A DNA stretch of 64,000 nucleotides from Gossypium raimondii (taxonomy: Eukaryota; Streptophyta; Magnoliopsida; Malvales; Malvaceae), in assembly GCF_025698545.1 (NCBI RefSeq), contig NC_068569.1, forward strand, positions 9,672,001 to 9,736,000, in the 5' to 3' direction. The notes below the pieces were generated by a model that was given only the letters and a program-made list of their open reading frames with translations, had not been told where the DNA came from and searched no databases. The number at the start of each line of letters is the position of its first letter. The stretch's first letter is position 1. The translations under genes and the position numbers were made by a program. Shown in pieces: positions 31,139 to 55,661 of the stretch.

Positions 31139-32608
31139 TTATTTCCCTTGTAAAGACAGCAAAATGAACAAAAATAGTGATGCCAACTGAGATAACCTAA
31201 CAGAAACTGAAGTCTTACGAACTGCTCCAGCTGATACATTTATTGTTGTTGTCATATCCCCATTTGTGTTGTTGGACAAATGCTGCACTGTCCTTGCTGA
31301 ACCGGGTTTAGGTGCATCACATAAACCGATGCCCCTATCAAAGGCATCTTCAAACCCGTTATTTGCATTAAAACATAGTCCTGAATTGTTGTTAAGCCTA
31401 AGCTTGCGCCCCATCTTCCACACCATTTCTCTTCCAAATGGAACCGGGCCGGTTAAGTGATTATCATTCAGCCTTAGTTCACTAACATTCTTCAAGTCCC
31501 TGAAGTTGCTTGGAATTGACCCATTGAAGTGATTTCCGTCAAGATAAGCCACCCGAAGGCTGTTCAACCGGCCTAATGACTCGGGGATCGGTCCATGCAA
31601 GTTCATGTTCGATAAAACTAGGATCATTAAATCCTTCATTCCATCAAAGCAATCACTAGGAATGGCAGTTGATCCCATTTGATTGCCTTTGAGGATCAAA
31701 GCTTGTAGGGAAGTTAAGCTACTGAGTGATGTTGGAAATGGGCCGGACAAGCGATTATAACTCAAATCCATTAGGATGAGCTCTTTTAGCCCACTAAAAG
31801 AATCGGGTATGGAACCGGTCAAACGATTATGACTAAAATCGATTTTGACTAAAGACTGGCATGACCCAAGGGTAAATGGGATTGAACCCATTAAAAGATT
31901 TTGGCTCATATCCAAAACATTCAAAACCGGGAAGCTAAAAGCAGGAATTGAACCGTTTAATTTGTTCCCACTCAAATCCAACGACCTTAGGCCAGTGATC
32001 ATGCCTAATGAAACAGGGACCGAACCGTTAAGGTTGTTCTTGTGAAGATCAAGAACCCGTAAACGAGTAAGATTTCCCAGTTCAGCAGGAATGGAACCAA
32101 TATGCCCATTTTCCCTAAGGACCAAAGTCTGTAACGTGGAACCCAATTGACCCAAAAACTTTGGGATTGGCTGAGGATTACAAGTGAAACAACGGTAAAA
32201 AAACAGTGTCCTAAGATGAGGAAGCTTGGTAATGGACTCTGAAAGATAAGACTTTGTCTGGTCACAAGTAGGGAAAGCAGTGTCATCGGACAATGCCCCA
32301 AAAGACAAGGAAACAACGTGGTAAACGTTATCTTTGTCCGGCATGCACTCGATGCCGTGCCACCGCCCACGGCAAACGTCGGGGATATCCGTGGCCCAAT
32401 CATTCCCCGTGGCTCGCATTATATCGTAAACCGCATCTTGCTCTTGAGGGTTGGTCCGAGCCCCATTTTTGTTAATCGAAAACCCGGTTTGAGGACCGTC
32501 GATGAGAGTAGAGGGGACGCCGGAATCCGACATGATGACTGTAAAAGGCCTAGAGAGTTGGAAAAAAGCACAAAAGATGACGAGGAAAAGAGTGAAATAT
32601 GTAGCCAT
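31139..32608 (-). CDS. TMM: TOO MANY MOUTHS receptor-like protein (stomatal patterning)
   Basis: A single-exon gene of 489 residues. I chose ATG 32608 (MATYFTLFLV) over the in-frame ATG at 32680 because it starts a typical signal peptide (about residues 1-24) and matches the family length. The mature N-terminal region is the TMM-specific block (GPQTGF, QDAVYDIMRATGNDWA, CRGRWHGIECMPD), followed by about ten extracellular leucine-rich repeats with N-glycosylation sites. A short hydrophobic C-terminus (LASLFLFILLSL) follows, and there is no kinase domain. TMM works at the plasma membrane with ERECTA-family kinases to sense EPF peptides and space stomata. Intronless structure and sequence agree with Arabidopsis TMM (At1g80080), also next to PRP8 there. 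Confidence 0.97.
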   Translation of the reverse strand: MATYFTLFLVIFCAFFQLSRPFTVIMSDSGVPSTLIDGPQTGFSINKNGARTNPQEQDAVYDIMRATGNDWATDIPDVCRGRWHGIECMPDKDNVYHVVSLSFGALSDDTAFPTCDQTKSYLSESITKLPHLRTLFFYRCFTCNPQPIPKFLGQLGSTLQTLVLRENGHIGSIPAELGNLTRLRVLDLHKNNLNGSVPVSLGMITGLRSLDLSGNKLNGSIPAFSFPVLNVLDMSQNLLMGSIPFTLGSCQSLVKIDFSHNRLTGSIPDSFSGLKELILMDLSYNRLSGPFPTSLSSLTSLQALILKGNQMGSTAIPSDCFDGMKDLMILVLSNMNLHGPIPESLGRLNSLRVAYLDGNHFNGSIPSNFRDLKNVSELRLNDNHLTGPVPFGREMVWKMGRKLRLNNNSGLCFNANNGFEDAFDRGIGLCDAPKPGSARTVQHLSNNTNGDMTTTINVSAGAVRKTSVSVRLSQLASLFLFILLSLQGK

Positions 32609-33626
32609 TTTTGGGAAAGAGTGAGTGAAAAATGGTGGAGTTAAAGTTGATTTGATATAAGGATCAAGGGGAAGCAGCAAGTGGAGTAAATGAGAGGGGT
32701 CGGGTTCTTGAATGAAGGAAAGCTAATTATGCGTTCACGGGAAATGAAGGGGTTGAAATAAATTTTCATGTAGTATTATTATTATTTTTTTGCGCATTAA
32801 TGTTTTTCACGAGAATTTCGTCCTTCCCATTCGAGATTGAGAACATCAAGTTACGTCATGTGGGGTCCATTACTAAGACTAAAACGACGGCGTAGGGCCT
32901 TAAATTAGGGTTTCAACTTTGAAACGAACCCTTTTGCAACTTATTTTCCACTTGCCCCCCTCATGAACGCGCAGCTCAACCTCAACTCTGAAGGCTGGGG
33001 AGTGATATTGCCCTAGATTTCGACATCTGAGTTCAGAATTGCGCCGCTGTAGCTCTTTAAGAGGTGCCTTGTGGATTACTTGGTTGGGATTCTTAAAGGT
33101 ACCAAATATTTGCAGAATTTCTACAGCAAAATTATATGATCATGCATCCGTAGGATTAGGTTAAAAGCTACTGTGATTTTATTCCTATACATGTTGCTGA
33201 ATTTTGAATCACGGACTTAATTAGATGAAGATTCTCATGGCCCGCATTCGATCGTGTTGTTGTATGAGCTAAAAACAATTGGATTTATTTATTTATTTTG
33301 AATTGGAATATAATTTTAATTATTGAACTAGCTGTTTAGTTGATCAGAAGTCTACTTGAACAAGTTAAAGTACCTTGGTATCTTTCTCGAGTCAATCTCA
33401 GCCTGAAAATGAAACTTGATTGAGTTCAAGCTCTTCAAGCATAAAGTTTGGAGTTGAGCCTAGAGCTTGGTATCCTTTGCTTGGTTGGGAAGCCCCTAAA
33501 CCTAGCAAGAGCACTAGGTTTTCTTATCTTTCATCCAAGTGTCTCTAATTTGCTTTGGTCTATATTTGAGGTCCGTTGAAAGGTCTACATGCTGATCCCT
33601 CTGTAGTTCTCAATGATCACTTGCAG
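32609..33626. promoter_or_regulatory. Divergent promoter region of TMM and TFIIIA, with a TFIIIA leader intron
   Basis: TMM reads leftward from 32608 and TFIIIA rightward. A reverse telo-box TTAGGGTTT lies at 32905-32913, as expected for a gene tied to ribosome production. A probable 5' UTR exon ends at a donor GT at 33099-33100 (cttaaag|gtacc), and the acceptor is probably the AG at 33625-33626 (cacttgcag), 40 bases before the TFIIIA ATG. The positions are inferred from motifs; no transcript was seen. Confidence 0.45.
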
Positions 33627-33666: not shown

Positions 33667-35957
33667 ATGGATGAAGAAAAAGGAGAAAGAGTATCAGGAC
33701 CAATCTTCAAAGACATAAGGCGTTATTTCTGTGATCATTGTGGAATTTGCAGATCTAAGAAGTCTCTCATCACCACCCACATCCTCACCCACCACCCGGT
33801 ACCTGCTTTGATTCTGCATGGTTTATTCAATTTTTCTAATGACATAGGCCAATGGATTCTTCTTACTTTTCTTTAAACGGGTTTATACTAAACATTCTTT
33901 TCAACTTCGGGTTTGGTTCAGGAGAAAATAGACAATGGAGGGAAGGAAGAAGAGGAAGTTTCCACGTCAAATGAATGCCAAGAATGTGGTGCTACTTTCA
34001 GGAAGCCTGCTCATTTGAAGCAACACTTGCAAAGCCACTCTCTCGAGGTACCTTTCTTTTATAAGTATTTAGTTCCCTTTGCATTCAAGGTTTTAATAAT
34101 GTTCAATAAGCTAATTTATCAAACCTCTCTGCCCTTTTTAGTTATATATATCTATATGTATATAATAGTTTTTGAATATTTAACAGTTATAGGTGACAAA
34201 AGCCATAGTGTAGAACATGATTTTGGTTTTTGTTAATTGCGTTTATGATAAATATATATATCTCAGTTTTCATGAAGCAAATCTTAGATAACCCAAAAGA
34301 AGTCCCTAAGGCAACAATCAAAGGAAGCTGCGCTTGCAGACAATCTGTCATTCCCCTTAATAACACCTATTGTTTTGTCTTGTACTTTAGTACGGCTTAT
34401 GATTTATGGCTAGTTTGTTTTTCTTCAGAAGTTCATGTATATTAAGGATCAATACTTTTGCAGGAATTGTTTCTTTTTATGAAAATACCAATGGATGTTA
34501 TAGTGTGAAGCATTGGATCCCACAAAGAGAACTCCAAAATGCGAGAGGCTGCCTTGTTTGACTTGAATGAATCAGTATCAGGTTGGGAGACCTCCTGAGA
34601 AGCTTCATCAAGTGAGCCTCGGTCACACTGTGTGGTACTTGAAGGTTTGAAGAGTTGTTCATATGCATGTATGGTTCATTTTGGTTGCTACTTATACAAG
34701 TAGGTTCTAATACTTATTTTTCTGTTTTTTCAGAGGCCATTTGTTTGTTTAGTTGATGATTGTCATGCTAGCTATAGGAGAAAAGACCATTTGAATCGTC
34801 ACCTTCTTCAGCACCAAGGAAAACTTTTCAGTTGTCCAATTGAGACCTGCAATAGCAAATTTGCGTTTCAAGGCAACATGAAAAGGCACGTGAAAGAATT
34901 TCATGATGAAGATTCATCTTCCACTGATGCTGCAAGCCAGAAGCAATATATCTGCCAGGAAGTAGGATGTGGAAAAGTGTTCAAGTTTTCATCAAAGCTG
35001 AGAAAGCATGAAGATTCTCATGGTAAGTTGCTTTCCTTCTTCATTTCTCAAAATTAAAGCATGTGATTTGGTGATGACGAAGAGAAGTAAGCTGATTGGG
35101 AGGTGATGTTTTCATGCCTAATGAGTGCTGTTAAAATTATTACAGTTAAGCTGGATTCAGTTGAAGCCTTCTGTTCTGAACCAAGTTGCTTGAAATATTT
35201 TAGTAATGAGCAATGCCTTAAGGCTCATGTGCAATCATGCCACCAATATATTAATTGTCAAATATGTGGGGCAAAGCAGCTGAAGAAGAACATCAAGCGG
35301 CACCTTCGATCACATGAATCAGGAGTTGCATCAGAAAGAATTAAGTGTGATTTTGGGGGTTGTCTCCATACATTTTCAACTGTAAGATACTTGTGAACCT
35401 TAAATATGCAATTTATTTACAGTTAATCATAAGAAGTTGAATGTGGTTGTTTTGGTCTGAAGTGTGGAATACTGAAATTCTTTTCTGATTATGAACCTTT
35501 TTTTTTTTCCTTTATCACCAAAATACTGAAATATTCTATTACAGAAATCAAATCTGCGTCAGCATGTCAAGGCTGTGCATGAAGAACTCAAGCCTTTTGC
35601 ATGTAGCTTCTCTGGTTGTGGGATGAGATTTTCATACAAGCATGTCAGAGATAACCATGAGAAATCAGCGCTCCACGTTTATGTTCCAGTAAGTTATTTA
35701 GTTGTCAATGATTAAATGCTATTATGAGCTTGTTTATTTCGTCGTAGGTATTTTTCGTGATAGACAAAGAGTAATGATTGTAACGACTGTTTCCTATTCA
35801 GGGCGACTTCATAGAGTCGGATGAGCAGTTTCAGTCAAGGCCAAGGGGTGGGCGGAAAAGAACATGTCCCACTGTGGAAATGCTTATTCGAAAAAGAGTT
35901 GCTCCACCACAAATGGATACGATGATGGATCCAGGGCCTATTCAGGGTTGCTCTTAA
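33667..35957 (+). CDS. TFIIIA: Transcription factor IIIA (5S rRNA gene activator and 5S rRNA-binding protein)
   Basis: Productive coding exons are 33667-33798, 33922-34047, 34734-35022, 35146-35381, 35545-35688 and 35802-35957. The ATG at 33667 gives [11 protein letters not shown], as in plant TFIIIA. An upstream in-frame ATG at 33613 lies in the probable leader intron. About nine C2H2 zinc fingers are visible (for example [24 protein letters not shown], split here by fingers as C-x2-C...H-x4-[37 protein letters not shown]). They end in a basic tail ([17 protein letters not shown]) that looks like a nuclear signal. TFIIIA binds the internal control region of 5S rRNA genes to recruit TFIIIC/IIIB and RNA polymerase III, and also binds 5S rRNA. 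A cassette exon between the second and third coding exons controls expression (separate entry). Arabidopsis homologue: At1g72050. Confidence 0.95.
34504..34634 (+). promoter_or_regulatory. 5S rRNA-mimic cassette exon (P5SM) controlling TFIIIA splicing
   Basis: Between the second and third productive exons lies a stretch plainly similar to plant 5S rRNA. It has GGATCCCA and GAACTCC in the loop A/helix III region, then AGTATCAGG, TTGGGAGACCTCCTGAGAAG against 5S TGGGTGACCTCCTGGGAAG. The acceptor is TTATAG at 34498-34503; candidate donors are CAA|GTGAGC (exon end 34611) and GTG|GTACTT (exon end 34634). Ends pair: TGAAGC at 34506-34511 with GCTTCA at 34602-34607. Because the previous exon ends on a codon boundary, inclusion reads into a TGA at 34564-34566, truncating the protein after finger two. 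In plants, ribosomal protein L5 binding to this element is known to favour skipping and productive TFIIIA mRNA; included forms go to nonsense-mediated decay. Confidence 0.92.
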
Positions 35958-36626: not shown

Positions 36627-38389
36627 TTACTCTTCGGCAGATGTCTTACTCCTTTTACGAGTTGCTATCTTCTTATTCTTCATATTGCTAGCAGTCATAA
36701 GTTTATAATCAGAGACAGGCAGTTCACTTAATTTTCCAAACCTTTGCCCATAAAAGTGCCACATCTCTGCCCTGATCCCATGTTGTCAAATGAGGAAATA
36801 AAACATCAGTAGAGATTTACTAAAAGTATGCCAGAGCGATGTTGTTAGATGACTTACCAATACGCCAAGAACTGAAATGGTGCATATTTTGCATAGATAA
36901 GCTCAACATCCCTTCCAACAGTCTGTACAGTACAACTTTTTGAATGAACCTGCACTTGCTCGGACTCTAGGTCAGTGTCGAATATGAATGCGTCTCATAT
37001 GAGTATACTCAATTTATTTTATATGTTTTTGCTTATTGGGAAGATCATGCTTTCGTACCCATAGTCGAACATATGTTATATATGGTTCTTGGACATGGAT
37101 ACTTTAAAAGAAAAGAAGTTCAGGTAACATAAGATTAAACCGCTATAGAAAGCTGAAAAAGAAATTCTTCAACAAGGTACATTGGCTAGGGGAATGAATG
37201 GGTGATTTACCTGCTTTAAATGCCTGATAGTTTCAGAATCAGCTGGAATCACATGGTAAAATCCCATACACATGAGCACATTGGCACATGTGAAAGGACC
37301 GAATCCATCAATTTGACGCAGCCGCTGAGATAGCTTATCATAACTGGAGAAGCTTGTTTCCTTGCAATCTTCTTCCAGTTGCGTTAGTTGAATATTGCCT
37401 TGGACAACCCCTTGCGCAAGTTTCAATATTCGACTTGCTCGGTAGCCAAGATTGCAGCGTTTTGCAAGAAAACTTTCATCAAGGTTTGCTAGTTCTTCGG
37501 GACTGGGGAAGCTTCCCATGCCTACAAAGTCAAGGGGTTCTTGGGAAAGCTGAAGATCTGACACTGAATTATCTACTTTGGACTCTGTGAATTTGCTTTC
37601 TAAACGCATGGAAACTTTAGACACCCTCAACTTTCTCTTTGACTCCTTCCCTGCGGGCGTTTTAGGAATGAAATCATCTTCAGCAGCCTTTGAACTAGAA
37701 ATTTGGTGTTGAATTTCAAACTGAAGCTCACAAAGTGCCTTAGCCATGCTCAAAGTTCTTGAAAACCTATAGAATGTAGGGGGTGCTCTTATTTAAATTT
37801 GGCCCCAGGTGTATATAGCGGCATTATATCAAATAGGTTAAGGACGGTGCAAAAAATTCAATGATGATGAAAGGATAATATATGAAAATACATACTGGCA
37901 GTTACAGAGAAGAATGCACTTGACCATGTCTTCAAATAGAGTAGGGGATCTGAAGACTCTCCCACTGAAACTCCTCAAATACTCAGTTGCTTCTTCTTCT
38001 CCATGTAATGCTTCCACAATGCTACGAAACTCTCTCACCTTGTTTTCCTCGGACTCCGACAACCGCAGCATTCTAGACACCTGGTTTAAAAGAGAGTGGC
38101 GGTGCGGTGGAGAGAGGGAGGATGCACCGTAAACGCGGAGGTAGAGAGTGGAAGAAGAAGAAGTGGGCGGCTGAGAGATGCGGACGGTGACTGTAAGAGG
38201 AGGAGAAGTGAGACGTAAAGGGCGAGAGAAGGAGCGGGAGATTGGATCCCAGTGGTTAGGGGCCAACATGAATAACCCATGGCTGCATATTGCCTTCTCT
38301 AGCTCGAATCCTTCCGCTGCTTCGCGTAGTGGCAACTCTACCAACAAGCTGCTACTGCCATTCCCATTATTCTCCTGCTCCTTCGCCAT
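36627..38389 (-). CDS. HhH-GPD superfamily DNA glycosylase (base excision repair)
   Basis: Coding exons in transcript order are 38389-37896, 37766-37211, 36949-36858 and 36771-36627, giving 428 residues. An in-frame ATG at 38416 could add nine residues; I preferred MAKEQENNG. The N-terminal part resembles the OGG1/AlkA N-terminal fold (ERVFRSPTLFEDMVKCIL-like, then LLCNCQFSRTLSM). The helix-hairpin-helix is IDGFGPFTCANVL (about 317-329), followed by the Gly/Pro loop and the expected catalytic Asp 341 in PADSETIRHL. The C-terminus carries WAEMWHFYGQRFGKL and ends in a Lys/Arg-rich tail (KNKKIATRKRSK) that may be a nuclear signal. It should remove a damaged base in the nucleus; the substrate (alkylated or oxidised) cannot be told from sequence. 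It faces TFIIIA tail to tail. Confidence 0.88.
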
Positions 38390-39890
38390 TTCTTTTTCTG
38401 TATTTCGACTTTTCACGGACTACTTTGCTTCTATTTTTTCTACCCCTTAAAAAGAAATATATATATATATATATATATATAGTATAAATATATGGTCGTA
38501 TTTTTATATTCCACTTAAATAAATTATAATTTTTTGCAATTAATAAATTATATATGAAATTTTCAACAAATAAAAAACATTTACAACAGTTCATCCTTCT
38601 ATTTTATATTTTATTTAGTTATTTAAAAATTAGAGTGAGAAAAACAACAAATTTTTATAATTTTTTAAAAAATCAGCACCTTTTTATAATAAAAAAAACG
38701 TAAGACATTGCAATCAAACTTGCGTTTTTCACTATTGTTGGTATAAAATTATAAAAAAAATTTATCTTTCATCACAATAGTATCACTAAACTAGTAAATA
38801 TATTTATTTTCACCTTTAAAATTATCATTTAATTAAGTCTTGACTTAAATAAAAGATAATTAAATTTTTTATTAAATACCAGTTTATTGAATCGTATTAT
38901 GATATTGTATAAAAAATTGGGAATTTTAAAAATTGAATCTTTATAGGTTAAAACATCATAATAGAATTGCTAAACGACTATTCTAACCCCTTCAGCTTAA
39001 TTAATTTGTTGGGAGAAAAAAGTCAACAAGAAACATCTCAGTCAGAATGTCATCACTCAAAAGTATCTTGGTTGCATATTCCTAGTGGTCATGTGCCAAG
39101 CCCTCTTGGACTGACCCGAGTTCAGTTTCACAAAGACAAGACCGGACACATGTACTTGCTGCCGCCCATGGTCATTTATTAAGCAGCTACATACATTGTG
39201 CTCTAATGGGTTAGGCTTAGATATTTTCTTCACTTGCATCTATTTCAAGTTCCATCACATATTTACAGGAGCTTATAAAAGTCATGTTTCAACCAAATCC
39301 TTATCATCATCAAGTAATCCTAAGAAATCTCATGACAAGTCACATCAAATTTAACCTAACAAGAGAGCATATGAATAAATTATATCAACAAAGTAAAGTA
39401 ACATGAATCTAGGAACTTCAGATTACATTCTCAAACAGGTTCCAAACGCAACAATTGCATGTATGTATAGCATGTGATGGCATTAAAGTAGTTGGCTTTG
39501 ACTTTTTTTAAATGAAAACTTATTATATATTTGTTCGTATTTTGATTCTGGGGTGATGAAGTTTGGTCAATCATAAATGTTGTCTGCTGGCAATCTATGC
39601 AAAGCTTGAAAGATGGAAGTGTGTATTACCCCCAGTTTTGTTTTAGGGGAGGAGCACTGGGTTACAGGCAGCTTTTAGGATACACACGTATTGATATTGC
39701 TTTCAATACTTTAATCAGGAGGAGGGAATTAATCATTAATTAGCACGGAACTTGAAGTTTGCCTCTCTAATATTATCTTAACAAAAGCAATTAACTATAA
39801 TTTCTGGGTTTTTAATTGATCTGTTTCATTGCTGGAAGATGGATTAATAACTAAGCTAGGTAGGTAGGCTCGTTCTCAAACTGGGCCTGG
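38390..39890. other. Intergenic stretch upstream of the DNA glycosylase and PV42
   Basis: It holds the glycosylase promoter on the left. An (AT)n microsatellite is at 38458-38480, followed by AT-rich sequence. A slightly less AT-rich patch at about 38990-39250 reads open on both strands for 60-70 codons but matches no family I know. No gene is supported. Confidence 0.4.
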
Positions 39891-54514: not shown

Positions 54515-55661
54515 GGGCAAAATATCAAAAAAAGTCTTATTTTTTAAAAATTTATCGAAATGGGCCCGGTATTTTATTATTTACCGGAATGGGCCATTTT
54601 CCCCAAAATCGCGTCCACGTCAGCGCGATGTCAGGAGATGTGTCAGCAAATCGCGTCCACGTCAGCGCGCTTTGCTTACGTGGACACAAATCGCGCCTAC
54701 GAGGACGTGATTTTCTGACACATCAGCAAAACGCGCTGACGTCCACGCGATTTGCTGACACGTCCCCTAACATCGCGCTGACGTAGACGCGATTTTGGGA
54801 AAAATGGCCCATTCCGGCAAATAATAAAATACCGGGCCCATTTCGGTAATTTTTAAAAAAATAGGGCTTTTATGTGTAATTTGCCCTTTTTTTTGGTATT
54901 TTGCCCCTAATAATACATATTAATGTATTACTGTAATATGTAGCTCAAATTATGTATTGTAGTTAATATTCATAATATTGTAGCTCAAATTGTCAATCCG
55001 TCTATACTATTGTACTAATAATATATATTAATGTAATATTGAAGAGTTAATTGATTAAAAAATAAATGCAACAAGTACAAAAAGATTCAAAATTATTACC
55101 AACAAGATTTGAACCAAGGTACTAAGGAAAAGAGCAAGCATCTTAACCAACTAAGCTAAACTAATTAATTGATATATTATAAAAATATCGTTATTATCTT
55201 AATTAAATTACTTACGTTCTAATGATTTATCGGACCTATTCCATACACGTGTCGATCGAAAAAATAATACAACAATTACGTAAAAAAATCCGTGTTTACT
55301 TCAAATAAATAAGGAAAATAATGATTTGAATGTTTCAAAATTCAATTTTAAACCGAAAAAATTAAAATTTAGAGGCAAAAAAGGATCTTTTTCGACGAAA
55401 ACTGCGGCAAACTGTCTCAATCGAAAAGTTATTCGAAATAAAAAAAATCGTCTTAATCGGACAACCGAGCCAAAAGTTATGGCCTTTCAAAGTTTTCCAA
55501 GCTAAAAAACATAAATTGTTCATGAATTATTGCTTCCACGTTAGCAAATCGAGCTTTCGAGGACGCGATTTCAGGGAAAATGGCCCATTCCAGTAAATAA
55601 TAAAATACCGAACCTATTTCGGTAAATTTTAAAAAATAGGACTTTTATGTGTAATTTACCC
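54515..55661. mobile_element. Non-autonomous Mutator-like element (MULE) with extra internal terminal-repeat copy
   Basis: It is flanked by the perfect 9-bp duplication TGATTTTCT at 54506-54514 and 55662-55670, the hallmark length for Mutator. Its ends are inverted repeats of about 100 bp: GGGCAAAATA... on the left, and on the right the reverse of GGGTAAATTACACATAAAAG. Both lead into CGGTATTTTATTATTTAC and AATGGGCCATTTTCC. A third, inverted copy of this end lies internally, finishing at 54887-54906, so 54515-54906 is itself a large palindrome built on GCGCTGACGTGGACGCGA-like units. There is no transposase; it is 1147 bp long. The interior includes a tRNA-like segment. Confidence 0.8.
55101..55164 (-). 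other. tRNA-like or SINE-like segment inside the MULE
   Basis: On the minus strand a perfect A-box match TAGCTTAGTTGG (55158-55147) is followed 31 bases later by GGTTCAAATCT (55115-55105), close to the B-box consensus. The spacing fits a tRNA gene, but the anticodon stem does not pair, so it is a decayed tRNA or a tRNA-derived SINE head. Confidence 0.45.

Follow-up and report, generated by a model that had tools for sequence, protein, structure and literature searches.

The window analysed here is a 64,000-nucleotide stretch of the Gossypium raimondii genome (C5:9672001-9736000 of a 751-Mb assembly), and holds a gene for transcription factor IIIA (TFIIIA), the activator of 5S rRNA synthesis, with a segment resembling 5S rRNA lodged in one of its introns (Table 1). 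The segment lies between the exons for fingers 1-2 and the exon for finger 3. The exons ending at 34047 and starting at 34734 join in frame without it, and the resulting hand-built gene model (33667-35957) yields a protein of 360 aa with nine C2H2 patterns, in which Pfam recognises zf-C2H2. Three of the 22 PDB sequences matched by this protein (E 1e-10) are TFIIIA chains (1tf6, 1tf3 and 8ffz). Generic zinc-finger proteins outscore these chains, but the longest aligned stretch (18-275), covered by no other match, belongs to 8ffz, an entry listed as Transcription factor IIIA, which we take to be the yeast protein. We identify the host gene as TFIIIA because of the nine fingers, the exon plan and the PDB matches together.

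Table 1. Features of the TFIIIA locus and its 5S-like segment (positions in the window)
Feature	Position	Strand	Remarks
TFIIIA gene, coding span	33667-35957	+	Hand-built model based on splice motifs and frame
TFIIIA coding exons	33667-33798, 33922-34047, 34734-35022, 35146-35381, 35545-35688, 35802-35957	+	Six exons, GT-AG introns
P5SM exon (148 nt), probable limits	34464-34611	+	Acceptor TTTTGCAG/GA, donor CAA/GTGAGC; from splice motifs and paralog identity
Stem I, 5' strand (AGTGTGA)	34502-34508	+	Holds the first in-frame stop, TGA 34506-34508
5S helix III/loop C-like hairpin	34515-34535	+	GGATCCCA ... GAACTCC, flanked by GCATT/AATGC
Extended stem, 5' strand (GAGGCT)	34545-34550	+	Pairs with 34615-34620 (AGCCTC), donor bases included
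Candidate TFIIIA-7ZF start, ATG plus 15 codons	34567-34611	+	In frame with fingers 3-9; TGA 34564-34566 directly before
5S loop E/helix IV-like arm	34573-34602	+	34581-34602 matches 19/22 bases of the genome's own 5S rRNA
Stem I, 3' strand (TCACACT)	34623-34629	+	Past the preferred donor

The gene adjoins a frame for a leucine-rich-repeat (LRR) protein of 527 codons on the minus strand (31139-32722). Also on the minus strand, at 37169-38419, are frames that may encode an HhH-GPD base-excision glycosylase (20.1 bits in Pfam, under the cut-off of 26.2). Further away, at 54658-54744 (+), a precursor of MIR7486, a microRNA known from Gossypium, reaches 69.7 bits (gathering score 67) and is the sole gathering-level Rfam match in the window.

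The same genome carries a second TFIIIA gene, on the minus strand of C5:24943500-24950500, which shares the exon plan, likewise has nine fingers and carries a P5SM exon of its own. The two proteins are identical at 291 of 357 aligned residues. When the protein sequence of exon 3 was compared with the genome, only these two genes matched (six candidates scored). Divergence between the copies amounts to dN 0.10 and dS 0.43 by NG86, and to dN 0.11 and dS 0.30 by YN00. The paralog's intron after the exon for fingers 3-5 starts with GC rather than GT. TFIIIA is described as a single-copy gene in a passage of one review (PMC6164485). Among the matches listed, the flanking LRR and glycosylase genes show no shared setting for the two copies: the LRR neighbour has no close second copy there (the next is 41%, on C10), the nearest LRR match to the paralog is a generic one of 41-45% about 0.35 Mb off, and the second copy of the glycosylase, on C3, is 83% identical with two stops in the matched stretch.

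Where the exon begins and ends determines what its inclusion does to the message. The first-pass annotation had drawn the limits at 34504-34634, with the TGA at 34564 as the in-frame stop; donor matches and paralog identity make these limits less likely, and the exon is probably 34464-34611 instead. The donor at 34611 agrees with the consensus at 7/9 positions, compared with 5/9 at 34634 (4/9 in the paralog) and 5/9 at 34644, and its sequence, CATCAA/GTGAGC, is identical in the paralog. Predicted U1 duplex energies (-4.6, -4.1 and -4.9 for 34611, 34634 and 34644, respectively) are so similar that they leave the choice of donor undecided. On the acceptor side, the TTTTGCAG/GA site at 34464 is kept in the paralog, as is the AG before 34504. 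Pyrimidine counts upstream of the two are close (8/17 for 34464 vs 7/17 for 34504), so our preference for 34464 depends on the motif and on conservation, namely the identity of TTTTGCAGGA in the paralog, and is a matter of judgement. From this acceptor, translation stops at TGA 34506 after 100 aa, 103 nt upstream of the 34611 junction. The TGA at 34564 is thus correctly described as in frame from acceptor 34504, and from that acceptor only, but it is not the first stop from 34464. In the paralog, inclusion ends the frame after 90 aa. In both copies, inclusion therefore gives a premature stop after two fingers, and skipping gives the full frame.

With donor 34611, an ATG at 34567 opens a frame over fingers 3-9 that is 289 aa long in the window and 290 aa long in the paralog; it is lost if donor 34634 is used. 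In both copies the candidate N-terminus begins with M followed by N or D. The frame is a candidate for TFIIIA-7ZF, a published isoform with fingers 3-9 whose biogenesis section 4 of PMC6164485 calls debated. The inclusion mRNA could accordingly be mainly coding, so that the switch would pick between two proteins. We consider this reading possible, though doubtful. The same section mentions that immunoblots detected the 7ZF protein and leans towards direct translation, but also relays the conclusion of others that 7ZF arises by proteolysis. The open frame itself is not surprising: 15 open codons occur by chance with a probability of about 0.49 (by arithmetic), and since the copies are 93% identical at the 7ZF start, the open frames in the two are not independent. 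The ATG also sits in a poor context (T at -3). In the window copy, an overlapping 19-codon frame opens at another ATG, 34539, located after the first stop and before ATG 34567.

The segment very probably corresponds to the P5SM exon known from TFIIIA of land plants (Hammond et al. 2009; Fu et al. 2009, both as reported by citing papers), and the two copies offer a comparison of what has been kept. In a single MAFFT alignment of the intron of the two genes, the upstream part (34060-34440) is identical at 183/353 positions (52%), while the core (34496-34611) is identical at 108/116 (93%), more than any coding exon (81-92%). The flanks are intermediate (34464-34495, 21/32; 34612-34640, 24/29; 34641-34715, 57/72). 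A gap-tolerant pairwise aligner puts the introns at 77-84% because gaps absorb differences, and the contrast between core and intron thus depends on the aligner.

The predicted fold was compared between these two sequences only, and the joint fold, the single-copy folds and the stability give a mixed picture. RNAalifold predicts 42 pairs common to both copies, of which two are changed on both sides and none is broken. From window to paralog, T34504-A34627 becomes C-G in stem I, and A34570-T34605 becomes G-C in the extended stem. Applying the window-only fold to the paralog gives two compensatory and three broken pairs; applying the paralog-only fold to the window gives two compensatory and four broken pairs, with three more kept by a one-sided change. 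When the 14 substitutions are placed at random, at least two compensatory pairs appear with probabilities of 0.012 and 0.015. For the window's fold, fewer pairs are broken than random placement would give (0.050); for the paralog's fold they are no fewer (0.957; mean 2.74). Stability is modest (z -1.58, 17/200 shuffles as stable; and z -2.77, 2/200). In a 261-nt context, the window's fold retains stem I and the 5S-like hairpin, whereas the paralog's best fold loses both, and only the extended stem and the arm remain. The donor nine-mer CAAGTGAGC has a mean predicted pairing probability of 0.85-0.93 (both copies, three lengths each), compared with 0.57-0.65 for the stretch as a whole, although the window's best fold leaves two donor bases, 34613-34614, without a partner. 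The 3' strand of stem I lies beyond the preferred donor, and hence in the downstream intron; as stem I thus pairs exon with intron bases, the complete fold is possible only in pre-mRNA.

The change at A34570-T34605 touches codon 2 and a silent third position of the 7ZF frame, so it suits both the fold and the coding sequence. Tentatively, the mimic may be bifunctional, with its loop E arm serving in the pre-mRNA fold read by ribosomal protein L5 and also being translated as the 7ZF N-terminus; we would not call this likely. If true, one 5S-derived stretch would be both the off-switch of the nine-finger protein and the start of the seven-finger one, and 7ZF would arise by direct translation at ATG 34567.

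That the element has decayed here, persisting as an intron remnant that neither folds nor switches, is very unlikely. The modest stability and an Rfam 5S score under the cut-off (given below) would suit a relic, but in the MAFFT alignment the core is more conserved than the coding exons, next to an upstream intron at 52%, and the changes between copies preserve pairs.

The likeness to 5S rRNA was measured against the genome's own 5S rRNA by local alignment under two scoring schemes. The first-pass annotation had pointed to a 5S-like segment between two productive exons, and this holds: GGATCCCA (34515-34522), GAACTCC (34529-34535) and GACCTCCTGAGAAG (34589-34602) are all present, and they are ordered and oriented as in 5S rRNA. 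The stretch 34464-34650 scores 33 and 27, and none of 2000 shuffles per scheme reaches the real score (maxima 26 and 19.5). The paralog's element scores 34 and 24, again with 0/2000 shuffles as high. Among 2128 tiles from both strands of the window, the segment ranks first, ahead of unrelated tiles that reach at most 23 and 20.5. Across the 751-Mb assembly, the arm 22-mer (34581-34602) has 17 matches with at most two mismatches, and its reversed-pattern control has none. The two exact matches are the two TFIIIA genes. The other 15, each with two mismatches, fall on contigs with 5S genes (12 on C9, two on C180 and one on C202). In each of the eight of these 15 loci that were inspected (~3 kb each), the best copy of the motif agrees with 5S rRNA at 105-115 of 112-121 columns, although this copy may be a neighbouring 5S repeat. 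Some 5S rDNA copies on these three contigs have CTCCTGAGAAG in place of the common CTCCTGGGAAG, a change that the P5SM arm shares. Genome-wide, the three blocks spaced as in P5SM, an arrangement that excludes true 5S genes, are confined to the two TFIIIA genes (control 0). Although the Rfam 5S score is under the cut-off, the shuffles, the tile ranking, the genome-wide specificity of the 22-mer and of the three-block pattern, and the order and strand of the blocks leave a chance resemblance in an ordinary intron with next to no credibility.

The first-pass annotation had named a covariance search without a 5S-like fold as evidence against its reading, and the outcome is in part of that kind. 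Over the arm, at 34566-34609, the Rfam 5S model (RF00001) reaches 15.1 bits with E 1.7, short of its gathering cut-off of 38, a shortfall that we attribute to divergence of the mimic. In the P5SM stretch, two snoRNA models reach 19.0 and 13.9, far under their own cut-offs. There is no gathering-level 5S match anywhere in the window in Rfam, and we rejected a 5S gene proper at this position. As the gathering score is missed, we regard the segment as a mimic rather than a 5S gene. The literature derives it from a 5S gene; the sequence likeness is consistent with this origin but is no proof of it.

Taken together, the nine-finger frame, the 5S likeness, the conserved core, the pair changes, the donor pairing and the published system lead us to conclude that the feature is very probably the P5SM 'suicide' exon of plant TFIIIA, included by default and skipped via L5. 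This agrees with the first-pass annotation, which had also named the TFIIIA P5SM exon: the host has nine fingers, the 5S likeness is above chance, inclusion brings a stop, and the paralog differs by two pair-preserving changes. The system was correctly recognised there, and its edges were probably misplaced.

In the published scheme, L5 binding and TFIIIA exon skipping in plants are covered in parts of PMC5568362, PMC5972288, PMC4538838 and PMC6164485, and the P5SM splicing event is reported, in the parts of the literature consulted, in nine angiosperms and in two legumes. By analogy, the exon (most likely 34464-34611) would be spliced in by default, giving a stop after two fingers and no full TFIIIA. 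Free L5 would bind the 5S-like fold in the pre-mRNA and cause the exon to be skipped; the full nine-finger TFIIIA would follow, and with it more 5S rRNA synthesis. Because the preferred donor lies inside a P5SM stem, we infer that L5-stabilised folding may conceal it, with stem I closing across the donor from the downstream intron. L5 binding, skipping and mRNA decay are taken here from papers, and donor hiding and the exon limits are inferred; the gene structure, 5S likeness, conservation, pair changes, premature stop and L5-domain segments were computed. The last give 28 matches in the genome, with five places holding all three domain stretches; the stretches in the middle are interrupted by a stop, which may mark an intron edge.

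This type of switch is already known from land plants. As there, the host is TFIIIA, the element follows the exons for the first two fingers and has a 5S-like hairpin and a loop E arm, inclusion means a premature stop, and skipping gives the full nine-finger protein. Unlike there, one genome has two copies. With 5S rRNA (RF00001) it shares the GGATCCCA ... GAACTCC hairpin and 19/22 bases of the arm, but its hairpin loop is longer, its arm is preceded by an extended stem, and stem I shows little sequence likeness. The closest engineered counterpart is the HyP5SM suicide-exon cassette, which, as described in part of PMC4538838, is retained by default with a premature stop and skipped when L5 is supplied, as the native exon would be. 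However, HyP5SM is engineered and answers to rice L5, whereas the gene in the window is native and its response to L5 is putative. Among 20 of the 40 titles listed on TFIIIA and Gossypium, none concerns the P5SM exon, which does not prove its absence from the literature.

To the known switch we make small additions: a second copy in one genome, two pair-preserving changes and a candidate 7ZF start inside the mimic. Both TFIIIA genes keep the mimic at a dS of about 0.30-0.43, which suggests that neither can do without control of its own. Two mimic-bearing TFIIIA genes in one genome make a natural test case, and the ATG inside the mimic offers a direct route to the question of how 7ZF arises, by translation of the inclusion mRNA or by proteolysis.
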